Shown here piece by piece: positions 17,683 to 43,124 of a DNA stretch of 43,124 nucleotides. The stretch comes from an uncultured Flavobacteriales bacterium. Lineage in GTDB: Bacteria; Bacteroidota; Bacteroidia; Flavobacteriales_G; Salibacteraceae. Below the pieces are notes generated by a model, which did not search any database, was not told the DNA's origin, and worked only from the letters and a program-made list of their open reading frames with translations. The stretch is taken from NCBI GenBank assembly GCA_913057205.1, contig CAJXNO010000021.1, positions 1-43,124 of the forward strand, given 5' to 3'. The number at the start of each line of letters is the position of its first letter. Position 1 is the stretch's first letter. The position numbers and the translations under genes are program-made.

Positions 17683-19106
17683 AAGCGCAAAAAGAATGAA
17701 GTTGGACCTCCTTCCTTGCTTTCGAAAGCGATGGAACCACCGACCGACTCCATGATCTGACTTGAAATCGACAATCCAAGACCGGTACCGCTGCTCTTCG
17801 TGGTAAAATTGGGACGGAAGATCTTATCCTTCAGCTCTTCTGAGATGCCCTCACCGTTGTCTCTCACTTCGATCACAGCTTCCTTTCCTTGAATGCTCAG
17901 CTGTATCAAGACCTCCGGTGATGCAGATTCCGCAACTGCATGCTTCGCATTCTTCAGGAGGTTATTGAGGACACGTCCCAACTGTTCGCGGTCCATTTGG
18001 ATCACGATATCCTCCTCTGGAACATCCACCCTCAGCCTAAAAGGCACATTTGAGAAAAGCTCCGCCACTTCACGAATGGACTGCTGGAGGCTCACCTGTT
18101 CAATTTGTGCCTTTGGCATCTTGGCGAAGTCAGAAAACTCGGTAGCGATCCTACTCAATGCATCGATCTGCTGAATGATGGTATGCATGGTTCGCTTGAA
18201 CTTCTCACGCCACTCCGGGTCGTCGTAGGCCGCTGTAGCCTGCAAGTGCTGCACACTCAAACGGATAGGGGTAAGTGGGTTCTTGATCTCATGGGCTACT
18301 TGACGCGCCATCTCACGCCAAGCGGATTCACGCTCCTGCTTTGCAAGTTCTTGCCGACTTTCCTCGAGTTTGAGAAGCATCGCGTTGTAGGTGTCTACCA
18401 ACTTACCCACCTCGTCATCAGAATGCCAATTGAAGGGTTCGTTTTCACCATTTAGGTCCACTCGTTCCATCCGCTCGCTCAAGGCCGTTAGGTTGCGTGT
18501 AATCGAGCGAGAAAGTAAAAACGTGAGCAGGATACCGCCCATGAAGATGAAGAGGTATACCAAGCCGATGGAGCTGAGAAAATCTTCGAGGTCTTTCTCA
18601 GCGATGTTGATGTCCTGCAGATAAGGAATATGGAGGATGGCGATGCGTTCGCCTTCGTCGTTGTAGAGGTTGGTATAATCAGAAAGGTAATCGCGCCCCT
18701 CCTCCCGCTCTGGGATGATGATGCGGTTGAAGCTCTCAAGTTCTTCGAGGGTGGTTTCAGGTACCCTGCGGTGGATGTATTCCGAGTGAATCGAATCTGG
18801 TCTGGCAGACACAAGCATCTCTCCATTCGTATTGAACACGTTGATCTCGAGTCGATGCGCCGAAGCCAGCTTGAGCAGCTCTTCTTCAAACTCGCGTACC
18901 ACCACATCGCGGGCTTCTTGCAGCTCTACCTCCTTGGAGAAAAACTCCATTTCGGTTTTGATTGTACGCTCTTTCCGTTGGAGTCGCTCACGGTGATACT
19001 CTTCATTCTGCTTGCTGAAGAACCAAATGGTCACGATCCCGATCACCAGGAGGGAGAATACCACCAAGGAAAGCATGGATAGGGTGATGCGGGTGCGCAG
19101 CTTCAT
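17655..19106 (-). CDS. NtrY-like membrane sensor histidine kinase
   Basis: A two-component sensor that autophosphorylates on His and passes the phosphate to a response regulator that is not in this window. Order: transmembrane helix ~7-29, periplasmic sensor region with coiled-coil start (~30-180), second transmembrane helix ~180-200 (LVYLFIFMGGILLTFLLS), HAMP-like linker to ~250, dimerisation/phosphoacceptor helix with H box VAHEIKNPLTPIRLS, then ATPase boxes N (NNLLKNAKHAV), G1 (DNGEGI), F (IFRPNFTT) and G2 (GTGLGLSI). The H-E-I-K-N-P-L-T-P-I box resembles NtrY. The ATG at 19106 (MKLRTRITLSML) is preferred over 19124 because it gives a clean first helix. The sensed signal is unknown. No regulator gene is adjacent, which makes it an orphan here. 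Confidence 0.9.
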   Translation of the reverse strand: MKLRTRITLSMLSLVVFSLLVIGIVTIWFFSKQNEEYHRERLQRKERTIKTEMEFFSKEVELQEARDVVVREFEEELLKLASAHRLEINVFNTNGEMLVSARPDSIHSEYIHRRVPETTLEELESFNRIIIPEREEGRDYLSDYTNLYNDEGERIAILHIPYLQDINIAEKDLEDFLSSIGLVYLFIFMGGILLTFLLSRSITRNLTALSERMERVDLNGENEPFNWHSDDEVGKLVDTYNAMLLKLEESRQELAKQERESAWREMARQVAHEIKNPLTPIRLSVQHLQATAAYDDPEWREKFKRTMHTIIQQIDALSRIATEFSDFAKMPKAQIEQVSLQQSIREVAELFSNVPFRLRVDVPEEDIVIQMDREQLGRVLNNLLKNAKHAVAESASPEVLIQLSIQGKEAVIEVRDNGEGISEELKDKIFRPNFTTKSSGTGLGLSISSQIMESVGGSIAFESKEGGPTSFFLRFQLAAKESK

Positions 19107-35838: not shown

Positions 35839-35912
35839 TCCTCCTTAGCTCAGTTGGTTAGAGCATCTGACTGTTAATCAGAGGGTCCTTGGTTCGAGCC
35901 CAAGAGGAGGAG
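35839..35912 (+). tRNA. tRNA-Asn (anticodon GTT)
   Basis: A complete cloverleaf of 74 bases without encoded CCA. The acceptor stem is TCCTCCT/AGGAGGA with discriminator G. The D arm is GCTC-AGTTGGTTA-GAGC and the anticodon arm TCTGA-CTGTTAA-TCAGA with anticodon GTT. The T arm is CTTGG-TTCGAGC-CCAAG. All stems pair. From the anticodon arm to the 3' end it is duplicated at 42841, which marks it as the integration site of the downstream element. The 3' half of the present gene is therefore probably supplied by the element, which restores a working tRNA. Confidence 0.97.
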
Positions 35913-35919
35913 CGAAAGC
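35868..35919 (+). repeat. attL core: 52-bp direct repeat (left copy)
   Basis: Starts TGACTGTTAATCAGAGGG within the anticodon arm of the tRNA and ends at GCGAAAGC, 7 bases beyond the tRNA. It is identical to 42841-42892. Flanking bases differ on both sides (C versus A before, C versus G after), so the repeat is exactly 52 bp. Its start in the anticodon loop region is a known preference of one subgroup of tyrosine integrases. Confidence 0.93.
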
Positions 35920-36174: not shown

Positions 36175-36690
36175 TCAGTTTGATTTCTTGTTCCTAAATA
36201 TTTCGACCCGATGCTTATGTACTATCTGTCGAGATAATTGAAGTAATTCAGCAATTTGAGCATTAGAATGATCAGGGAGTTTTTGAATAGTTCTTTTGAT
36301 TTTCTCCTTCGTTTTCAGCTTAGGGTTATTCCTGATTTTCATTACAGATTCAAGCTTATTAAGAAGACCAACTACATCATTGTAGTGCTTGATATCTGTA
36401 TTATCCTGCCGATGTCTGAGTTCTTTCTTGTACTGTCCTACCGTATAATTCCAGCAGTGTAGAAGTCTGTTATATCTATCAAATCCTTCTACTACCTGTG
36501 GTTCCCATTTCTTACCATGCAAACAATGTTCCCAAACAAATTGATCACCAACTAGCCTTACGCGATGGTTTACCATGCGAGATAGAGTATATAACTCCTC
36601 ATCGGTCCAACTAGTCGTTACTTGACATGTATTTTTCTTCTTCTTTTTTCGTGCCTTTTCTTGTTTTATCATAATGAAATACGTTTCCAT
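36175..36690 (-). CDS. Element-encoded DNA-binding protein with C-terminal helix-turn-helix
   Basis: Not assigned to a named family. The N-terminus has a strongly basic run at residues 11-19 (EKARKKKKK). Residues 27-45 (SWTDEELYTLSRMVNHRV) resemble the first helix of a SANT/Myb-like fold. A Trp/Tyr-rich middle (WEHCLHGKKWEPQVVEGFDRYNRLLHCWNY) and a helical region follow. Residues ~141-162 (HSNAQIAELLQLSRQIVHKHRV) read as a helix-turn-helix. The start may be 36690 or the ATG at 36672. No signal peptide. The gene lies at the left end of the element between the putative arm sites and a region with TTTACA/TGTAA palindromes, so a regulator or recombination directionality factor is a reasonable guess. 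It is AT-rich, like the rest of the element. Confidence 0.65.
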   Translation of the reverse strand: METYFIMIKQEKARKKKKKNTCQVTTSWTDEELYTLSRMVNHRVRLVGDQFVWEHCLHGKKWEPQVVEGFDRYNRLLHCWNYTVGQYKKELRHRQDNTDIKHYNDVVGLLNKLESVMKIRNNPKLKTKEKIKRTIQKLPDHSNAQIAELLQLSRQIVHKHRVEIFRNKKSN

Positions 36691-37308
36691 TATTAATTAC
36701 CTGGTTTACAAGAAAATTAATGAAGTGTAAACGAAATACTAACTATCATGTTGATTATCAATGAAATAAAAATCATTTACATGTAAGGTATATATACTCC
36801 CATATTCCTTGAAATAGAAAACTGAATTATCATGCATCGACATGTTTAAGATGATACTATGATTTAATATTTTCTTTCAGAAAGTAAAACTGTTTATAAA
36901 CCAGTTGCTCCCTATACCAATGCATAGTATCGTCAAATAGGTTTCAGGTTTTTATTGATTTTCAATCAATTACTGAGGTTTTCTATAGCCACCCCTACAC
37001 TCTAGAGTAACCCCTAACATTTACTCGGGACCACATCCAAATGAATGAGGTTCTTAATAAGAATTGCATACTCGATTATCTCGTTTAGGCTGCATGAAAC
37101 TCAGCATTGATAAACAAGCTTCAAAGAATTTCTCTGACGGGATTTTCTGAAGCAATTAAAATTCTTTAAATTGCCTAATCATGGTATTCCTTCCTGAAAA
37201 ATACTGGTCTCTATTCCGTCCAATTTAGGTAAGGGGCTTATTTGGTATTTCCTTTGTCCTCAATCAAACAAGCGTTGCCGTAAACTGTATTCAATAGGAG
37301 GCTATTTC
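36691..37308. other. AT-rich non-coding region at the left end of the element
   Basis: About 620 bases with no convincing gene. It holds the operator-like palindromes at 36704-36786, an inverted repeat AACTG...CAGTT around TTTATAAA near 36889-36906, and a short palindrome TTGATTTTCAA near 36957. It may contain promoters in both directions and remains of former genes. No RNA gene or repeat array is seen. Confidence 0.5.
36704..36786. promoter_or_regulatory. Operator-like TTTACA/TGTAA palindromes upstream of the HTH gene
   Basis: GTTTACA (36704-36710) and TGTAAAC (36726-36732) form a 7-bp inverted repeat 14-42 bases before the 36690 start. TTACATGTAA (36777-36786) is a perfect 10-bp palindrome with the same half-sites, 45 bases further on. 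Repeated half-sites next to a helix-turn-helix gene suggest autoregulation. Confidence 0.45.
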
Positions 37309-37556: not shown

Positions 37557-38714
37557 TTATTCAACCAAAAATTGATGAGAGTAATTCTCAGTACCAATCT
37601 GGATAATATAGTTTCCTTTTGGCAGTTTACTAACATCAATAGCGGAACTTAAACTCCTTAGCTCACCTTGTTTTATTTCTTGCCCAAGAGAATTAAAAAT
37701 TCTGAATTTTGACCCCAAAAGATTTGATTCAATTTTAATGTTTAACTCATTTGAGCTAGGATTAGGGTAGGTGTAAAAAACTTGTTTTGAAGGCATTACA
37801 GCTATATTATTTGTACTATTCAAAGAATATATCCGTACATGTCCAGCATGATTTCCATTGCCGTCGTTAAAAGGTGCTCCAATAGCTACGGTACTCCCAT
37901 CGCTGCTGAGTGAGACAGACCATCCAGACCAATCATCTGCTGCTTCTCCATCGATATCTGAGCCTTGTTGGGTCCAGGTGCCGCTTATGTTTTTGTATAT
38001 CCGTACATATCCATCATTAGGCAATCCATTCTCGTCGTTACCAGTTGCTCCAATAGCCACGGTACTCCCATCGCTGCTGAGTGAGACAGAAAATCCAAAG
38101 AAATCATCTGCTGCTTCTCCATCGATATCTGAGCCTTGTTGGGTCCAGGTGCCGCTTATGTTTTTGTATATCCGTACATGTCCAGCATCAGTTCCATTGC
38201 CGTCGTTAGAAGGTGCTCCAATAGCCACGGTACTCCCATCGCTGCTGAGTGAGACAGATTGTCCAGAGAAATCACCTACTGCTTCTCCATCGATATCTGA
38301 GCCTTGTTGGGTCCAGGTGCCGCTAATGTTTTTGTATATCCGTACATGTCCAGCATCGAATCCATTGCCGTCGTTAAAAGGTGCTCCAATAGCCACGGTA
38401 CTCCCATCGCTGCTGAGTGAGACAGATAGTCCAGAGAGATCACCTACTGCTTCTCCATCGATATCTGAGCCTTGTTGGGTCCAGGTGCCGCTTATGTTTT
38501 TGTATATCCGTACATGTCCAGCATCTAATCCATTGCCGTCGTTAGAAGGTGCTCCAATAGCTACGGTACTCCCATCGCTGCTGAGTGAGACAGACCTTCC
38601 AGACCAATCTTCTGCTGCTTCTCCATCGATATCTGAGCCTTGTTGGGTCCAATTTTGAGCAAAAGAGGAAACAAAAAATAATAAGGAGAGGGTTAAAAGA
38701 GAAACATATTTCAT
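37557..38714 (-). CDS. T9SS-secreted FG-GAP repeat protein carried on the element (385 aa)
   Basis: A predicted surface or extracellular protein. Residues 1-19 are a signal peptide (MKYVSLLTLSLLFFVSSFAQ). Residues ~21-305 are five tandem 57-residue units of FG-GAP/integrin-propeller type: WTQQGSDIDGEA, then SVSLSSDGSTVAIGAP, NDGNG and HVRIYKNISGT. The units are nearly identical, and the DNA (171-bp units) is almost invariant. Residues ~310-385 (VFYTYPNPSSNELNIKIES ... LPKGNYIIQIGTENYSHQFLVE) form a T9SS type A sorting domain. The function is unknown; FG-GAP propellers often bind ligands or other cells. As cargo it would depend on the host secretion system, for which sprE/porW is in this window. 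Confidence 0.87.
   Translation of the reverse strand: MKYVSLLTLSLLFFVSSFAQNWTQQGSDIDGEAAEDWSGRSVSLSSDGSTVAIGAPSNDGNGLDAGHVRIYKNISGTWTQQGSDIDGEAVGDLSGLSVSLSSDGSTVAIGAPFNDGNGFDAGHVRIYKNISGTWTQQGSDIDGEAVGDFSGQSVSLSSDGSTVAIGAPSNDGNGTDAGHVRIYKNISGTWTQQGSDIDGEAADDFFGFSVSLSSDGSTVAIGATGNDENGLPNDGYVRIYKNISGTWTQQGSDIDGEAADDWSGWSVSLSSDGSTVAIGAPFNDGNGNHAGHVRIYSLNSTNNIAVMPSKQVFYTYPNPSSNELNIKIESNLLGSKFRIFNSLGQEIKQGELRSLSSAIDVSKLPKGNYIIQIGTENYSHQFLVE
37800..38654 (-). repeat. Five tandem 171-bp coding repeats
   Basis: Each unit encodes 57 residues of the FG-GAP protein. Long stretches are identical between units at the DNA level; changes are concentrated in two short windows that encode residues after GEA and after the NDGNG motif. 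The fifth unit diverges near its end, where it passes into the sorting-domain linker. Confidence 0.85.
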
Positions 38715-39055: not shown

Positions 39056-39465
39056 AGCTTTCTTTTTGGCGTTATCCACCTTATTTGTACCTTATTTGTA
39101 CCCTTAAAATATAAGTAACTGATATTCAATACTAATTACTTTCAAATTCGAAAAATTTATCTCAAATATTAGAAATAGAATCTTTATATCCTGCTTCAGC
39201 TTTTTTAGAAGCAGGGAATATAGCTCTAAGGGTCAGTCTCCCAGTCACCAAACCAATTTTTGAATGCAGGTGTCCTAACAGCATCATACTGAACATCATT
39301 ATTGCATCTGCTATACACTCACATATTGGGTCATACTATACATGTGAAACCTTAACCAAAACAGGAAACCGATTTAGAATCACACACCCCTGAGATAATT
39401 CGACACTTTAGGTTTTAGGTTTCAGGTTTTAGTTGGTCTGGTGCGAGTGTTTGGAGGTTTATCCT
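39056..39465. other. Non-coding AT-rich spacer in the element
   Basis: About 410 bases with no convincing gene. It contains two perfect 11-bp tandem copies of CCTTATTTGTA (39079-39100), an 8-bp inverted repeat CCTGCTTC/GAAGCAGG (39190-39215), and a short TTTTAGGT-like triplicate (39409-39432). The content suggests remains of an older element end. Confidence 0.5.
39079..39100 (+). repeat. Two tandem 11-bp CCTTATTTGTA repeats
   Basis: Exact copies at 39079-39089 and 39090-39100, followed by CCC. The 11-bp period equals that of the GACAGTT arm-type repeats of the element, although the sequence is different. Confidence 0.6.
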
Positions 39466-39666
39466 TTAAACCTTAGGCATATCATCCTCGGTTAATTCAG
39501 CTACCTCTAAGCCCCTTAAATAGGTTAGGGATACATTCAGGCTTGAATGACCCATCACCTTCTGTAGCTTCACTAATAAGCCTGTACGCATGTAGATTTC
39601 TGTCGCCCTAATATGTTTGAAAGAGTAAAGAGTCTGATTGTAGTAATCATGGGGGCGGTTGTTACC
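39466..39666 (-). pseudogene. 3' remnant of a tyrosine integrase gene
   Basis: Sixty-seven codons including the stop encode a C-terminal integrase piece: TLYSFKH ... KLQKVMGHSSLNVSLTYLRGLEVAELTEDDMPKV. They hold the H-G-H-S-S and catalytic Tyr motifs but none of the N-terminal, core-binding or first-Arg regions. The last ~165 bases match the end of the intact integrase gene (41699-42763) with about 14 mismatches by hand count. Further upstream (GNNRPHDYYNQ) the two differ, so the remnant derives from a related but distinct integrase. It lies three codons behind the TAG stop of the phosphatase gene and in the same frame. Confidence 0.85.
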
Positions 39667-39675
39667 TTCAATTTT

Positions 39676-41604
39676 CTAAAATCTCAATCCCAAGACAGAA
39701 ACATCATCAACTTGGCTATAGCTAGACTTCCACCCTTCAAATATTTCCATTAATTTCTGTTTTTGATCTGCCATAGGCAATTGATGGATTTCCAATAGGA
39801 GAGCTTTGAATTTAGAGGTTTTGAATTTTTTTCCTTTGTCACCACCAAATTGGTCGGCAAAGCCATCAGAGAATAAATAAATAATATCGCCCTTTTTCAG
39901 CTGGAAACACTGATTTGTAAAGGGCTTATATTGAATGAATTTCCCTACAGGCTGCTTATCAGGTTTGATTTCGATTAATTTATTATCGCGAATTATAATT
40001 AAGGGATTGTAAGCCCCTGCGTACTCTATATTCTCTCCTTTAATCGAACATAGGGCGATATCCATTCCATCAGATAGTACCTCATCCGCATCGTCAAATT
40101 CACTTACAATAAGTTCTCGGGTGCGGTTTAAAATTTGTGCAGGTTCGGTTATGTTTTCATGTAAGGTTTTATTCAGAGCGTTATAGCATACGGAACTAAC
40201 CATTGCGCCTGGCACGCCATGCCCTGTACAGTCTGCTAACGCAAAATATGTTCCAGCTTCATTAGAAGCTATCCAATAAAAATCGCCTGAGACAATATCA
40301 CGTGGTAAGAAAAGGATAAAGTGGTCATTGAGCAGCTCTTTTATTTTTTCTTCTCTAGGTAACAGGCTGTTTTGAACTCGTTGAGCATAACTTAAAGAGT
40401 CTGTTAACTCCTTGTTTTTGTTTTCGATTTGTTTTTTGTTCAGATTAATGATTTGGTTGCTTTGTTCTAACTTCTTCTTGCTGCGAGCCTGAAGATAAAC
40501 TACATAAAAAAGCAATAATACCATGACGATAGCTGCAAGTATTATAATCATTAACCTAGATTGTTTAAATGCTATTTTCTCGAAACGAACTTCTTGCTGG
40601 TGCTTTTCATTGTTTAGTCTTTGAATCTGTTCATATATCTGACGCCTGTTTTCAAATTCTTTTTCTGTATTTAAACTAACTAATTGGTTTCGAGCTAAGA
40701 GCAAACTCAAAGCTTTCTGATAATCTTTTTTTTGGATATTCACTTGGACCAAGGCATTAACGCAACTTAATCCAAGAGCTTTACTTGAGTCTGAAACATG
40801 TTCAAGTGACTTGTTAAGGCTTTTCTCGGCTTGGGCAATGTCTTGCAATCGAAAAGCTAAAAGACCTTCTAGCCAATAATAGTATGCCCAGGTTTTGGAA
40901 CTGTTGATTTGCTCTGAAATAGCATATGATTTTTGCACATAAACAGCTGCAGAATCACTATTTCCCACTTGAAAATATTCAAAGGAGAGGTTGTGATAAA
41001 CATTGGAAAGTGTCGACAGGTCCTCTTTTTTTGTTGCAATTTGGGCGACTTGTTCAAGGTATTCAATCGCCTGCTTGGGATTGGTATCTACTGTGGCTTT
41101 TAAAATTAATGGCGCGGTAAGCAGGCTGTCTTCACCCAATGATTCATAAAACAGATAAACGCTATCTGCCAATAGCATTGCTTTTTCGTGTTCATCTGTA
41201 TAGTTACTAATGAATGCAAGAACTTGCTGGGCTGAGGCGATGCCAGAATTGTATCCCGCTTTTCTTGATGCTTTCAAAATATCATTGGCCAATTGATGAG
41301 CGATATCAAATTGGTTGTATTCTAAACAAGAAAAGGCGAGAATTACTTGTTCTTCAATCTTTAGATACTTTGAGATAGACGCGTTAAAGCGCTTGGTATT
41401 TTCTTCAAATGCCTCGTGGATTTGGTCAGCAGAAAGGCCATCATCTTCAAATACTCTCGCTAATGAATCCGAAAAATGCACAAGTTTTAAGGAGTCTGTT
41501 GGGATTTTAGCAGCGTTGGCGTGGACGCTGAATAATAGAATCATAACCAGCCCAAGGCTAGCCATAATAAAGCGTGATTTACAGAAGAAATGAATGTTGT
41601 TCAT
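39676..41604 (-). CDS. Membrane TPR-SpoIIE (PP2C-type) serine phosphatase
   Basis: A signalling phosphatase with a periplasmic sensor region. Residues 1-32 form a signal peptide or first membrane segment (ends ANAAK). Residues ~60-330 are TPR-like helices (e.g. SNVYHNLSFEYFQVGNSDSAAVYVQKS). A transmembrane helix lies at ~350-375 (SRLMIIILAAIVMVLLLFYVVYL), followed by a coiled coil to ~415. The SpoIIE/PP2C domain occupies ~425-642, with metal ligands in DIVSGDFYW, ADCTGHGVPGAMVS and DIIYLFSDGFADQFGG and the final DDVSVLGLRF. These proteins typically act on anti-sigma-factor antagonists, but no such partner is present in the element. The gene is bracketed by two copies of an integrase 3' end, so it looks like inserted cargo. 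AT-rich. Confidence 0.88.
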   Translation of the reverse strand: MNNIHFFCKSRFIMASLGLVMILLFSVHANAAKIPTDSLKLVHFSDSLARVFEDDGLSADQIHEAFEENTKRFNASISKYLKIEEQVILAFSCLEYNQFDIAHQLANDILKASRKAGYNSGIASAQQVLAFISNYTDEHEKAMLLADSVYLFYESLGEDSLLTAPLILKATVDTNPKQAIEYLEQVAQIATKKEDLSTLSNVYHNLSFEYFQVGNSDSAAVYVQKSYAISEQINSSKTWAYYYWLEGLLAFRLQDIAQAEKSLNKSLEHVSDSSKALGLSCVNALVQVNIQKKDYQKALSLLLARNQLVSLNTEKEFENRRQIYEQIQRLNNEKHQQEVRFEKIAFKQSRLMIIILAAIVMVLLLFYVVYLQARSKKKLEQSNQIINLNKKQIENKNKELTDSLSYAQRVQNSLLPREEKIKELLNDHFILFLPRDIVSGDFYWIASNEAGTYFALADCTGHGVPGAMVSSVCYNALNKTLHENITEPAQILNRTRELIVSEFDDADEVLSDGMDIALCSIKGENIEYAGAYNPLIIIRDNKLIEIKPDKQPVGKFIQYKPFTNQCFQLKKGDIIYLFSDGFADQFGGDKGKKFKTSKFKALLLEIHQLPMADQKQKLMEIFEGWKSSYSQVDDVSVLGLRF

Positions 41605-41698
41605 TTTTAATTAATTGAAACTACATATTTTTCTATAATCTATATTAGATGGAATTTCTGGAGGCTCTGATTTTTTCTTTTTGGCAAAGAGAAATTGC
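41605..41698. other. Spacer between phosphatase and integrase genes
   Basis: 94 AT-rich bases upstream of the phosphatase start and downstream of the integrase stop. It contains an inexact TAGTTTCA -7-like element (minus strand) and a short GGCAA/TTGCC hairpin at the integrase end. It does not resemble the region that follows the integrase remnant at 39466. Confidence 0.4.
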
Positions 41699-42763
41699 CT
41701 AAACCTTAGGCATATCCTCCTCGGTTAATTCAGCCACCTCTAAGCCCCTTAAATAGGTTAGGGATACATTCAGACTTGAATGACCCATCACCTTCTGTAG
41801 CTTCACTAATGAGCCTGTACGCTGGTAGATTTCTATAGCCCCAGAGTGTCTGAAAGAGTATAGAGTCTGATTGGTGTCAATCAGCTTAGATTGGCTCTTA
41901 AATCGCCTCCAAAGGCACTTAAAGTAGTCCTGGTTGTATGCCTTCTGATTACCACTGAATACATTGCAGTTTAGGTCTCCAGCATGAAGGTTCTCTCGGA
42001 TGTATTTTGGGACAGGAACTATCCTGTTTCGTCCTGATTTATTCCGATGCCCTGATAGGTGTATTTGACTCAGATCGTTGGAGAAGTCCCCCCAACATAA
42101 CTCTCTTATTTCTCGATGTGGCCTGAGGAGGCATCCGTATGTCAGAAGACAACACAGGTAGAGGTTACTGTTAAAGGCTTTTATCTCATCTAGAATGAGG
42201 CCGATGTCTCTGAAGGGTTTATGGAGCTTAGCCTTTGCCTTTTTACTCTTATTCTTCAATAGGTCTCTCTCATCCATACCCAGGTTCACAGCCTCGTTTA
42301 TTAGGGCGTTTACATGTCTTCTAAAGGTGTTATAGCTTGAGGCATTGGTGTATCTGTTGAGCATAGCACTTAGTTCATTAGCGCATAGATTATTGCCTTT
42401 TGAGGCATCGACAATATCCCTGTAAGTGTAACGAAGGGTTGATTTGTATTTAGCTGAGTAGTTGCTATTCAGCTTACTCTCTAAAGCAAGCTTCAGGTAC
42501 TCTAGGTCAGATAACCGACCTGATTGAATTGTTTCTTTTCGATGTGACTTTAGAACACCCCCTTTGGTGATGTGACTATAAACCTCCGCAGCTAATAAAT
42601 TAGCCATTGATAGACGATGTTCTATGGGGTGGTTATTCGGGTTTAACGAGCTGTTAATTCTTTTGCCGCTATAAAGCCTTATTTTCTGATTATTCAGATG
42701 AAACGAGACGAAGACTTTAAGGTCTTTGGTTTGACCAACCTTGGGGTAACTTAGATTTATCAC
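41699..42763 (-). CDS. int: Tyrosine site-specific integrase
   Basis: Catalyses recombination between the element and the tRNA-Asn site. Residues ~1-85 are an arm-binding-type N-terminal domain, ~88-180 the SAM-like core-binding domain, and ~185-354 the catalytic domain. Catalytic residues can be placed: Arg214 (LLRPHREIREL), Lys242 (HRNKSGRNRIVPVP), Arg305 with His306 (YSFRHSG), His328 (GHSS) and the nucleophile Tyr337 (LTYLRG). Length 354 aa is complete. The start codon lies just two bases from the first of two GACAGTT repeats and 78 bases from attR, so integrase binding could repress its own gene. The 3' end is duplicated at 39466. It is of the type common in Bacteroidota integrative elements. 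Confidence 0.93.
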   Translation of the reverse strand: MINLSYPKVGQTKDLKVFVSFHLNNQKIRLYSGKRINSSLNPNNHPIEHRLSMANLLAAEVYSHITKGGVLKSHRKETIQSGRLSDLEYLKLALESKLNSNYSAKYKSTLRYTYRDIVDASKGNNLCANELSAMLNRYTNASSYNTFRRHVNALINEAVNLGMDERDLLKNKSKKAKAKLHKPFRDIGLILDEIKAFNSNLYLCCLLTYGCLLRPHREIRELCWGDFSNDLSQIHLSGHRNKSGRNRIVPVPKYIRENLHAGDLNCNVFSGNQKAYNQDYFKCLWRRFKSQSKLIDTNQTLYSFRHSGAIEIYQRTGSLVKLQKVMGHSSLNVSLTYLRGLEVAELTEEDMPKV

Positions 42764-42840: not shown

Positions 42841-42892
42841 TGACTGTTAATCAGAGGGTCCTTGGTTCGAGCCCAAGAGGAGGAGCGAAAGC
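42841..42892 (+). repeat. attR core: 52-bp direct repeat (right copy)
   Basis: Identical to 35868-35919. It contains the anticodon loop, variable region, T arm and acceptor 3' strand of tRNA-Asn but no 5' half, so it is not a functional tRNA gene. It marks the chromosomal 3' end displaced by integration. Confidence 0.93.
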
Positions 42893-42898
42893 GACTTG

Positions 42899-42928
42899 AA
42901 AGCCTACACGTATGTGTGGGCTTTTTTT
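42899..42928 (+). terminator. Displaced chromosomal terminator of tRNA-Asn
   Basis: AAAGCCTACAC and GTGTGGGCTTT form an 11-bp stem (one G-U) with a GTAT loop and a T tract. It now follows only the attR tRNA fragment. A second copy is at 43054-43083 in the tandem repeat. Confidence 0.8.
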
Positions 42929-43053
42929 GTTTCACGAAGTGAAGCAAACCGATTGGGCGAGAAGTTTATCCCGAGCAACCGTAGGGTGACGAGGGAAGCC
43001 CAACCCGCCTGAGCAAACTCAGTCGGGCAGGGAGGAGGAGCGAAAGCGACTTG

Positions 43054-43083
43054 AAAGCCTACACGTATGTGTGGGCTTTTTTT
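43054..43083 (+). terminator. Second copy of the tRNA terminator hairpin
   Basis: Identical to 42899-42928, 155 bases downstream, within the second repeat unit. It is preceded only by the tRNA acceptor-strand bases and by no tRNA gene. Confidence 0.7.
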
Positions 43084-43124
43084 GTTTCACGAAGTGAAGC
43101 AAACCGATTGGGCGAGAAGTTTAT

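Follow-up and report, generated by a model that had tools for sequence, protein, structure and literature searches.

Small tRNA-linked islands rank among the main routes by which marine bacteria exchange genes, and the turnover of their cargo is poorly known. In the window discussed here (the whole stretch analysed, 43,124 nucleotides, which is the entire contig C21 of an uncultured Flavobacteriales bacterium), the last bases of an integrase gene stand a second time on the far side of a phosphatase gene, raising the question of how the 3' end of a mobility gene comes to border cargo on both sides. If the 3' end of the integrase were a fixed seam, cargo could be swapped while the mobility gene is kept, and copies of the integrase tail would provide a searchable signature of that seam.

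The tRNA-Asn island and its repeated integrase end

The repeated pair lies inside a 7.0-kb tRNA-Asn island with exact 52-bp attL and attR repeats, which the sequence-only reading of this DNA had missed, together with a short repeat that I call repeat R. The intact tRNA-Asn (GTT) was located by ARAGORN at 35839..35913 (plus strand), attL comprises its 3' part and flank (35868-35919, plus), and attR is an exact copy of the same 52 bp, found by repeat comparison at 42841..42892 (plus). From attL to attR, and all on the minus strand, the island carries a 171-aa protein at its tRNA end (36175..36690; a similar protein sits beside an internal att junction in a relative, at locus L063), a second cargo gene for an FG-GAP repeat protein with a Por secretion tail (37557..38714; Pfam), repeat R, the integrase tail, the cargo gene for a 642-aa TPR-SpoIIE (PP2C-like) phosphatase (39676..41604; Pfam SpoIIE 8.7e-23 plus TPR) and a 354-aa tyrosine integrase (41699..42763; Pfam Phage_integrase 1.2e-08 and PHROG integrase families), whose 1065-bp gene has its start codon 78 bp from attR. 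With an internal tyrosine integrase, and with an intact tRNA and a displaced 3' tRNA fragment as its bounds, this is a tRNA-integrated genomic island; no relative of its integrase was found among viral contigs. Two further repeats are present: the FG-GAP gene contains 168-bp tandem repeats (37828-38651), and a 155-bp tandem repeat just past attR (42877-42969 and 43032-43124), within which the contig ends, begins with the last bases of the tRNA-Asn copy and is matched in part, at 94%, by the start of contig C9 of the same genome.

Integrase bases 41700-41883 are repeated directly at 39467-39649 (minus), a copy of the last ~184 bp of the gene with 90.8% identity over 184 columns and, at an E-value of about 5e-68, not a product of chance; an ungapped comparison of 39467-39640 with 41700-41873 gives 92%. 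The sequence-only reading had described an integrase 3' end duplicated around the phosphatase, 2.2 kb apart and most alike near the stop codon, and the measurements agree on each point, since the spacing between the tail copy and the integrase end is 2233 bp with the TPR-SpoIIE gene in between, and the stop-proximal 114 bp match the resident integrase at 110/114 positions (96.5%) vs 57/69 (82.6%) in the preceding 69 bp. This step in identity has a Fisher p of 0.002, as a single comparison with few differences, and across the same stretch of relatives' intact integrases the differences are spread about evenly, with no step; the last 114 bp of the window tail have been refreshed. Of the two limits given earlier for the repeat, the one at the stop codon holds (the gene has TAG there and its copy TAA); the far end had been placed at 39666 and lies at ~39649, with 26 bp separating it from the stop codon of the phosphatase. 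A protein-level extension of the tail to 39744 proved spurious, as it enters the phosphatase coding sequence. The copy is in frame to its own stop codon over its last 22 codons and the integrase body is absent; the host genome otherwise holds one intact gene of this integrase family and a 44-bp tail piece on another contig.

Had the end of the resident integrase been duplicated locally, and the phosphatase been inserted between the two copies, the direct orientation and the 96.5% match of the last 114 bp would be as expected. Such an origin is highly improbable, however, because at 90.8% the tail is about as far from the resident integrase as from those of other species (88.6-91.2%), a comparison of the two C-termini by pairwise identity, 184 bp being too short to resolve a phylogeny. 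The 82.6% match of the upstream 69 bp also speaks against it, as does the junction itself: the phosphatase 3' flank is fused to the integrase interior at -184 from the stop in the window and near the same point in another species (G001), pointing to one old event, while in G004 and G009 this flank continues into other sequence. The fusion of phosphatase and tail looks like a deletion junction. The phosphatase also recurs beside a 953-aa gene in a 5.3-kb block (L058:4240-9512 and L065:4505-9767) that is 96% identical between two species, and a ~36-bp integrase tail lies ahead of the block in L058.

Tails, cassettes and stacked elements in relatives

Nearly all genomes compared, within the genus and beyond it, are draft or MAG-type assemblies. 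A search with the full-length integrase DNA across 13 genomes of the genus returned integrases that are intact or cut by a contig end, and among the partial copies away from contig ends 15 were 3' tails (two in G000, three in G004, five in G006, one in G009 and four in G010) vs one internal fragment (in G010); an extra tail in G001, at a contig end, falls outside the 15. Genus tails reach at most about 240 bp into the 1065-bp gene, and under uniform truncation the probability that all 15 would start within the last 240 bp is about 3e-11. The stop codon is the end point of most tails, and most are in frame across the last ~20 codons. Of 27 tail starts in all, ten fall within a single stretch of 28 bp that ends shortly before the catalytic Tyr codon, a moderate clustering (scan P 0.016), and the pattern is not universal, the complete genome G080 having an integrase without any tail copy.

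Integrases ~95% identical to each other have flanks that turn unrelated within a few bases of the stop codon. In the window this flank is the phosphatase leader, G006 and G010 share another leader that comes with repeat R, and a distant clade has at least four further flanks; the integrases of G006 and of contig C10 in G010 are without the insert. A full integrase with different cargo and then a tail, the arrangement that the sequence-only reading had suggested looking for, occurs in G102, G200 and G207; G204 agrees in its different cargo and departs in having a body-deleted integrase, and G010 has a split integrase at the same tRNA-Asn site. This last locus (L062) uses the window's tRNA-Asn site beside the same neighbouring kinase-like gene, and its integrase is split near the catalytic Tyr codon, the body ending ~-77 from the stop, followed by a 0.45-kb one-ORF cassette and a tail from -54. 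Together with relatives' tails, it delimits the putative seam in the window as the integrase 3' end from just upstream of the catalytic Tyr codon to the stop (41699..41780, minus). In G032, a genome of the same family, an integrase (L069:9148-10191, minus) has unrelated residues in place of its C-terminus, the catalytic Tyr region among them, and a convergent cargo ORF overlaps its stop by 4 bp.

The distant clade belongs to another order, comprises families f55 and f62 with tRNA-Met and tRNA-Asn elements, and also has tail-only copies. In G102 the array reads integrase, cargo, 80-bp tail, cargo, ~39-bp tail, cargo, tRNA-Met, and in G200 it reads integrase, cargo c1, tail, cargo c2, tail. A comparison of G200 with G204 gives 92-94% identity for the integrase, 99-100% for the ~1.0-kb cassette c1 and 79% for the tail that follows, and the sequence beyond is unrelated; in G214 the cassette is 99.7% identical to that of G204 and has the same end point, without a tail, whereas the chromosomal flanks of G204 and G214 are only 82-88% identical. 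A near-identical cassette in diverged surroundings suggests that c1 has moved recently, with sharp boundaries at the integrase end and the tail start, and its far end lies in three different contexts in three genomes.

These arrays suggest an integron-like cassette system, in which the recombination site would be the terminal ~65-75 bp of the integrase gene, running from the catalytic Tyr codon up to the stop, and each incoming cassette would bring a replacement integrase 3' end and move the old tail to its far side, yielding integrase, cargo, tail, cargo, tail. The arrays of G102 and G200 would follow if an integrase acted on the 3' end of its own gene, and the clustered tail starts, the preserved frame of most tails, the three contexts at the far end of c1 and the split of the L062 integrase at that very point all speak in its favour. 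I nonetheless regard it as possible but doubtful, since c1 does not begin and end at the same point of the tail frame (one boundary falls between -40 and the stop, the other at about -68), against one conservative crossover, and the window tail begins at -184. Cargo ORFs that abut integrase or tail stops are only modestly unusual as well; among all convergent pairs in these loci, abutment within 15 bp is seen in 29%, a control that weakens stop-codon abutment as proof of a cassette. A GTTRRRY-like core, noted by eye on the antisense strand of tails in the distant clade (the window has GTTAGGG), was inconsistent and was not used.

Several hallmarks of integrons are absent as well. The window integrase scores 17.5 bits against the IntI-type model TIGR02249, whose cut-off is 265, and no match over this cut-off occurs in any of the 13 genus genomes, ruling out an integron integrase in or near the island; tail ends fold inconsistently where attC sites would form conserved hairpins, repeat R lacks covariation, and the integrase 5' end, beside which an attI would be expected, faces attR. 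The resemblance, a tyrosine recombinase followed by a one-orientation array in which short sequences akin to one another stand between small cargo units, is offset by an array that ends in a tRNA gene and by cargo on the 3' side of the integrase. That the 3' coding end of a bacterial island integrase is itself a docking site for small cargo cassettes with replacement C-termini is a rather doubtful proposal, and it is with similar reserve that one might call the result a distinct cassette system, an integron-like array without IntI and without folded attC.

Stacking of elements is seen in relatives. At L063 the integrase is preceded by an att junction and then by the left-end flank of another element with its 171-aa-like gene, beyond which lies an internal fragment of a further integrase, and at L067 a second att copy stands 1.1 kb away. 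Decay is visible too: in G204 and G214 one and the same cargo lies behind integrases that are truncated at different positions, with the bodies lost beside the chromosome, an IS3-like sequence abuts a tail in G004, and stumps in relatives have variable 5' ends, some being frameshifted or IS-truncated. One could conclude that tails are nothing but eroding stumps of old integrases in tRNA islands and that the 3' end is not special, and the variable, frameshifted and IS-truncated stumps, the tandem att junctions and the N-terminal deletions next to the chromosome are all as expected from this; it is unlikely to be the full account, however, given the bias in stump length and end point, the apparent cassette exchange with sharp boundaries and the integrase split at the same site in L062. 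The sequence-only reading had held that a tail belonging to a complete second integrase beside an att site of its own would point to simple tandem accretion; none was found in the window, but stacked neighbours in relatives approach that arrangement.

The integrase 3' end as a possible cargo seam

Recurring tails with different cargo, taken with the identity contrast around c1, make the integrase 3' end look like a recurrent recombination seam for cargo swapping. For the window, the account that fits best, at a probability of roughly one half, is that two elements were stacked, that the inner one lost its integrase body, and that exchange at the seam came later. In the presumed order of events, the integrase would have stacked at least two related elements at one tRNA gene, each laid out as tRNA-attL, cargo, integrase with its 3' end facing the cargo, and attR; the inner integrase would then have been reduced to a 3' stump, without body or att site, that is joined to the phosphatase end of the next element; and integrase-end copies in the population would recombine, either homologously or through Int itself, such that cargo on either side is exchanged and the integrase end is left unchanged. 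Such exchange would account for the match between current integrases and the last 114 bp of the stump. Stacking needs an att site between phosphatase and tail, though, and the window has none there. Stacking plus random deletion alone would leave the ~250-bp limit on tail length unexplained. Homologous exchange between integrase ends is the simplest alternative to integrase action at the seam.

Both interpretations first offered for this locus find a place here. The tail as a remnant of an older element is supported for the window by its equal distance from resident and foreign integrases, by stacking and by the shared junction, and the integrase 3' end as a joint for cargo is supported at the level of the family by the different cargo in relatives.

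Known systems and repeat R

Tycheposons are small tRNA-linked islands of marine bacteria with a tyrosine recombinase and exchangeable cargo. The island resembles them in being small, marine and tRNA-linked, with a tyrosine recombinase and swappable cargo, a likeness set out by description and not by sequence. I know of no integrase-tail copies in tycheposons. Genomic islands targeted to tRNA genes, including tandem arrays, are known more widely (Islander, PMC4383910), and the tyrosine integrase, the intact tRNA at one end and the displaced 3' fragment at the other are common to these and to the island. Known tandem arrays are recognised through members that each have their own integrase and tRNA fragment; here, by contrast, all that seems left of an inner member is a short 3' stump of the integrase, and such stumps recur where one stretch of cargo meets the next. 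Recombinases that disrupt their own gene, through a target inside it, are described in PMC8371274 as exclusively archaeal. With the suicidal (SSV-type) archaeal integrases, which have att inside the gene, integrase pieces likewise mark recombination boundaries, and the split L062 integrase looks similar, but the window integrase is intact, its primary att is tRNA-Asn, and the seam lies at its 3' end. A limited literature search found no report of short integrase-3'-end copies as cargo boundaries, and neither of the cited passages of PMC4383910 and PMC8371274 describes them. If the integrase itself acts at the seam, this would be a cassette system unlike integrons and a bacterial parallel to the self-targeting archaeal integrases.

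Repeat R provides a second set of boundaries. One copy, detected by nhmmer with a 127-nt profile, lies at 39312-39437 (minus), ~30 bp downstream of the tail stop, and BLAST places a partial copy of the upstream part at 36938-37026 (minus). At the E-value used, the repeat is present in seven genomes of the genus, mostly as same-orientation arrays behind integrases or tails, and it also lies between cargo genes in L059, L061, L063, L064 and L066. Some cargo blocks shared between unlinked loci at 94-97%, vs ~65-73% for orthologous chromosomal stretches, have an end within R or at its margin, and there are half copies of R as well. Half copies and block ends together make R a candidate double-stranded site; a structured RNA or folded recombination site was rejected, with no Rfam match and no covariation or compensatory changes.

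Downstream of R, before convergent genes, there is a hairpin at L064:17698-17960, L059:5740-5986 and L066:8690-8946, with differing arms and a common TTTTAATG-like loop (for example GTATAAGCGG...CCGTTTATAC and GGCTATGGGGC...GCCCTATAGC), which could be an attC-like or terminator element. Adjoining R in L064 is also a C-terminal fragment of a different XerC/D-like recombinase (18216-18458, minus), a 91-bp piece of which recurs in L057 at 93%.
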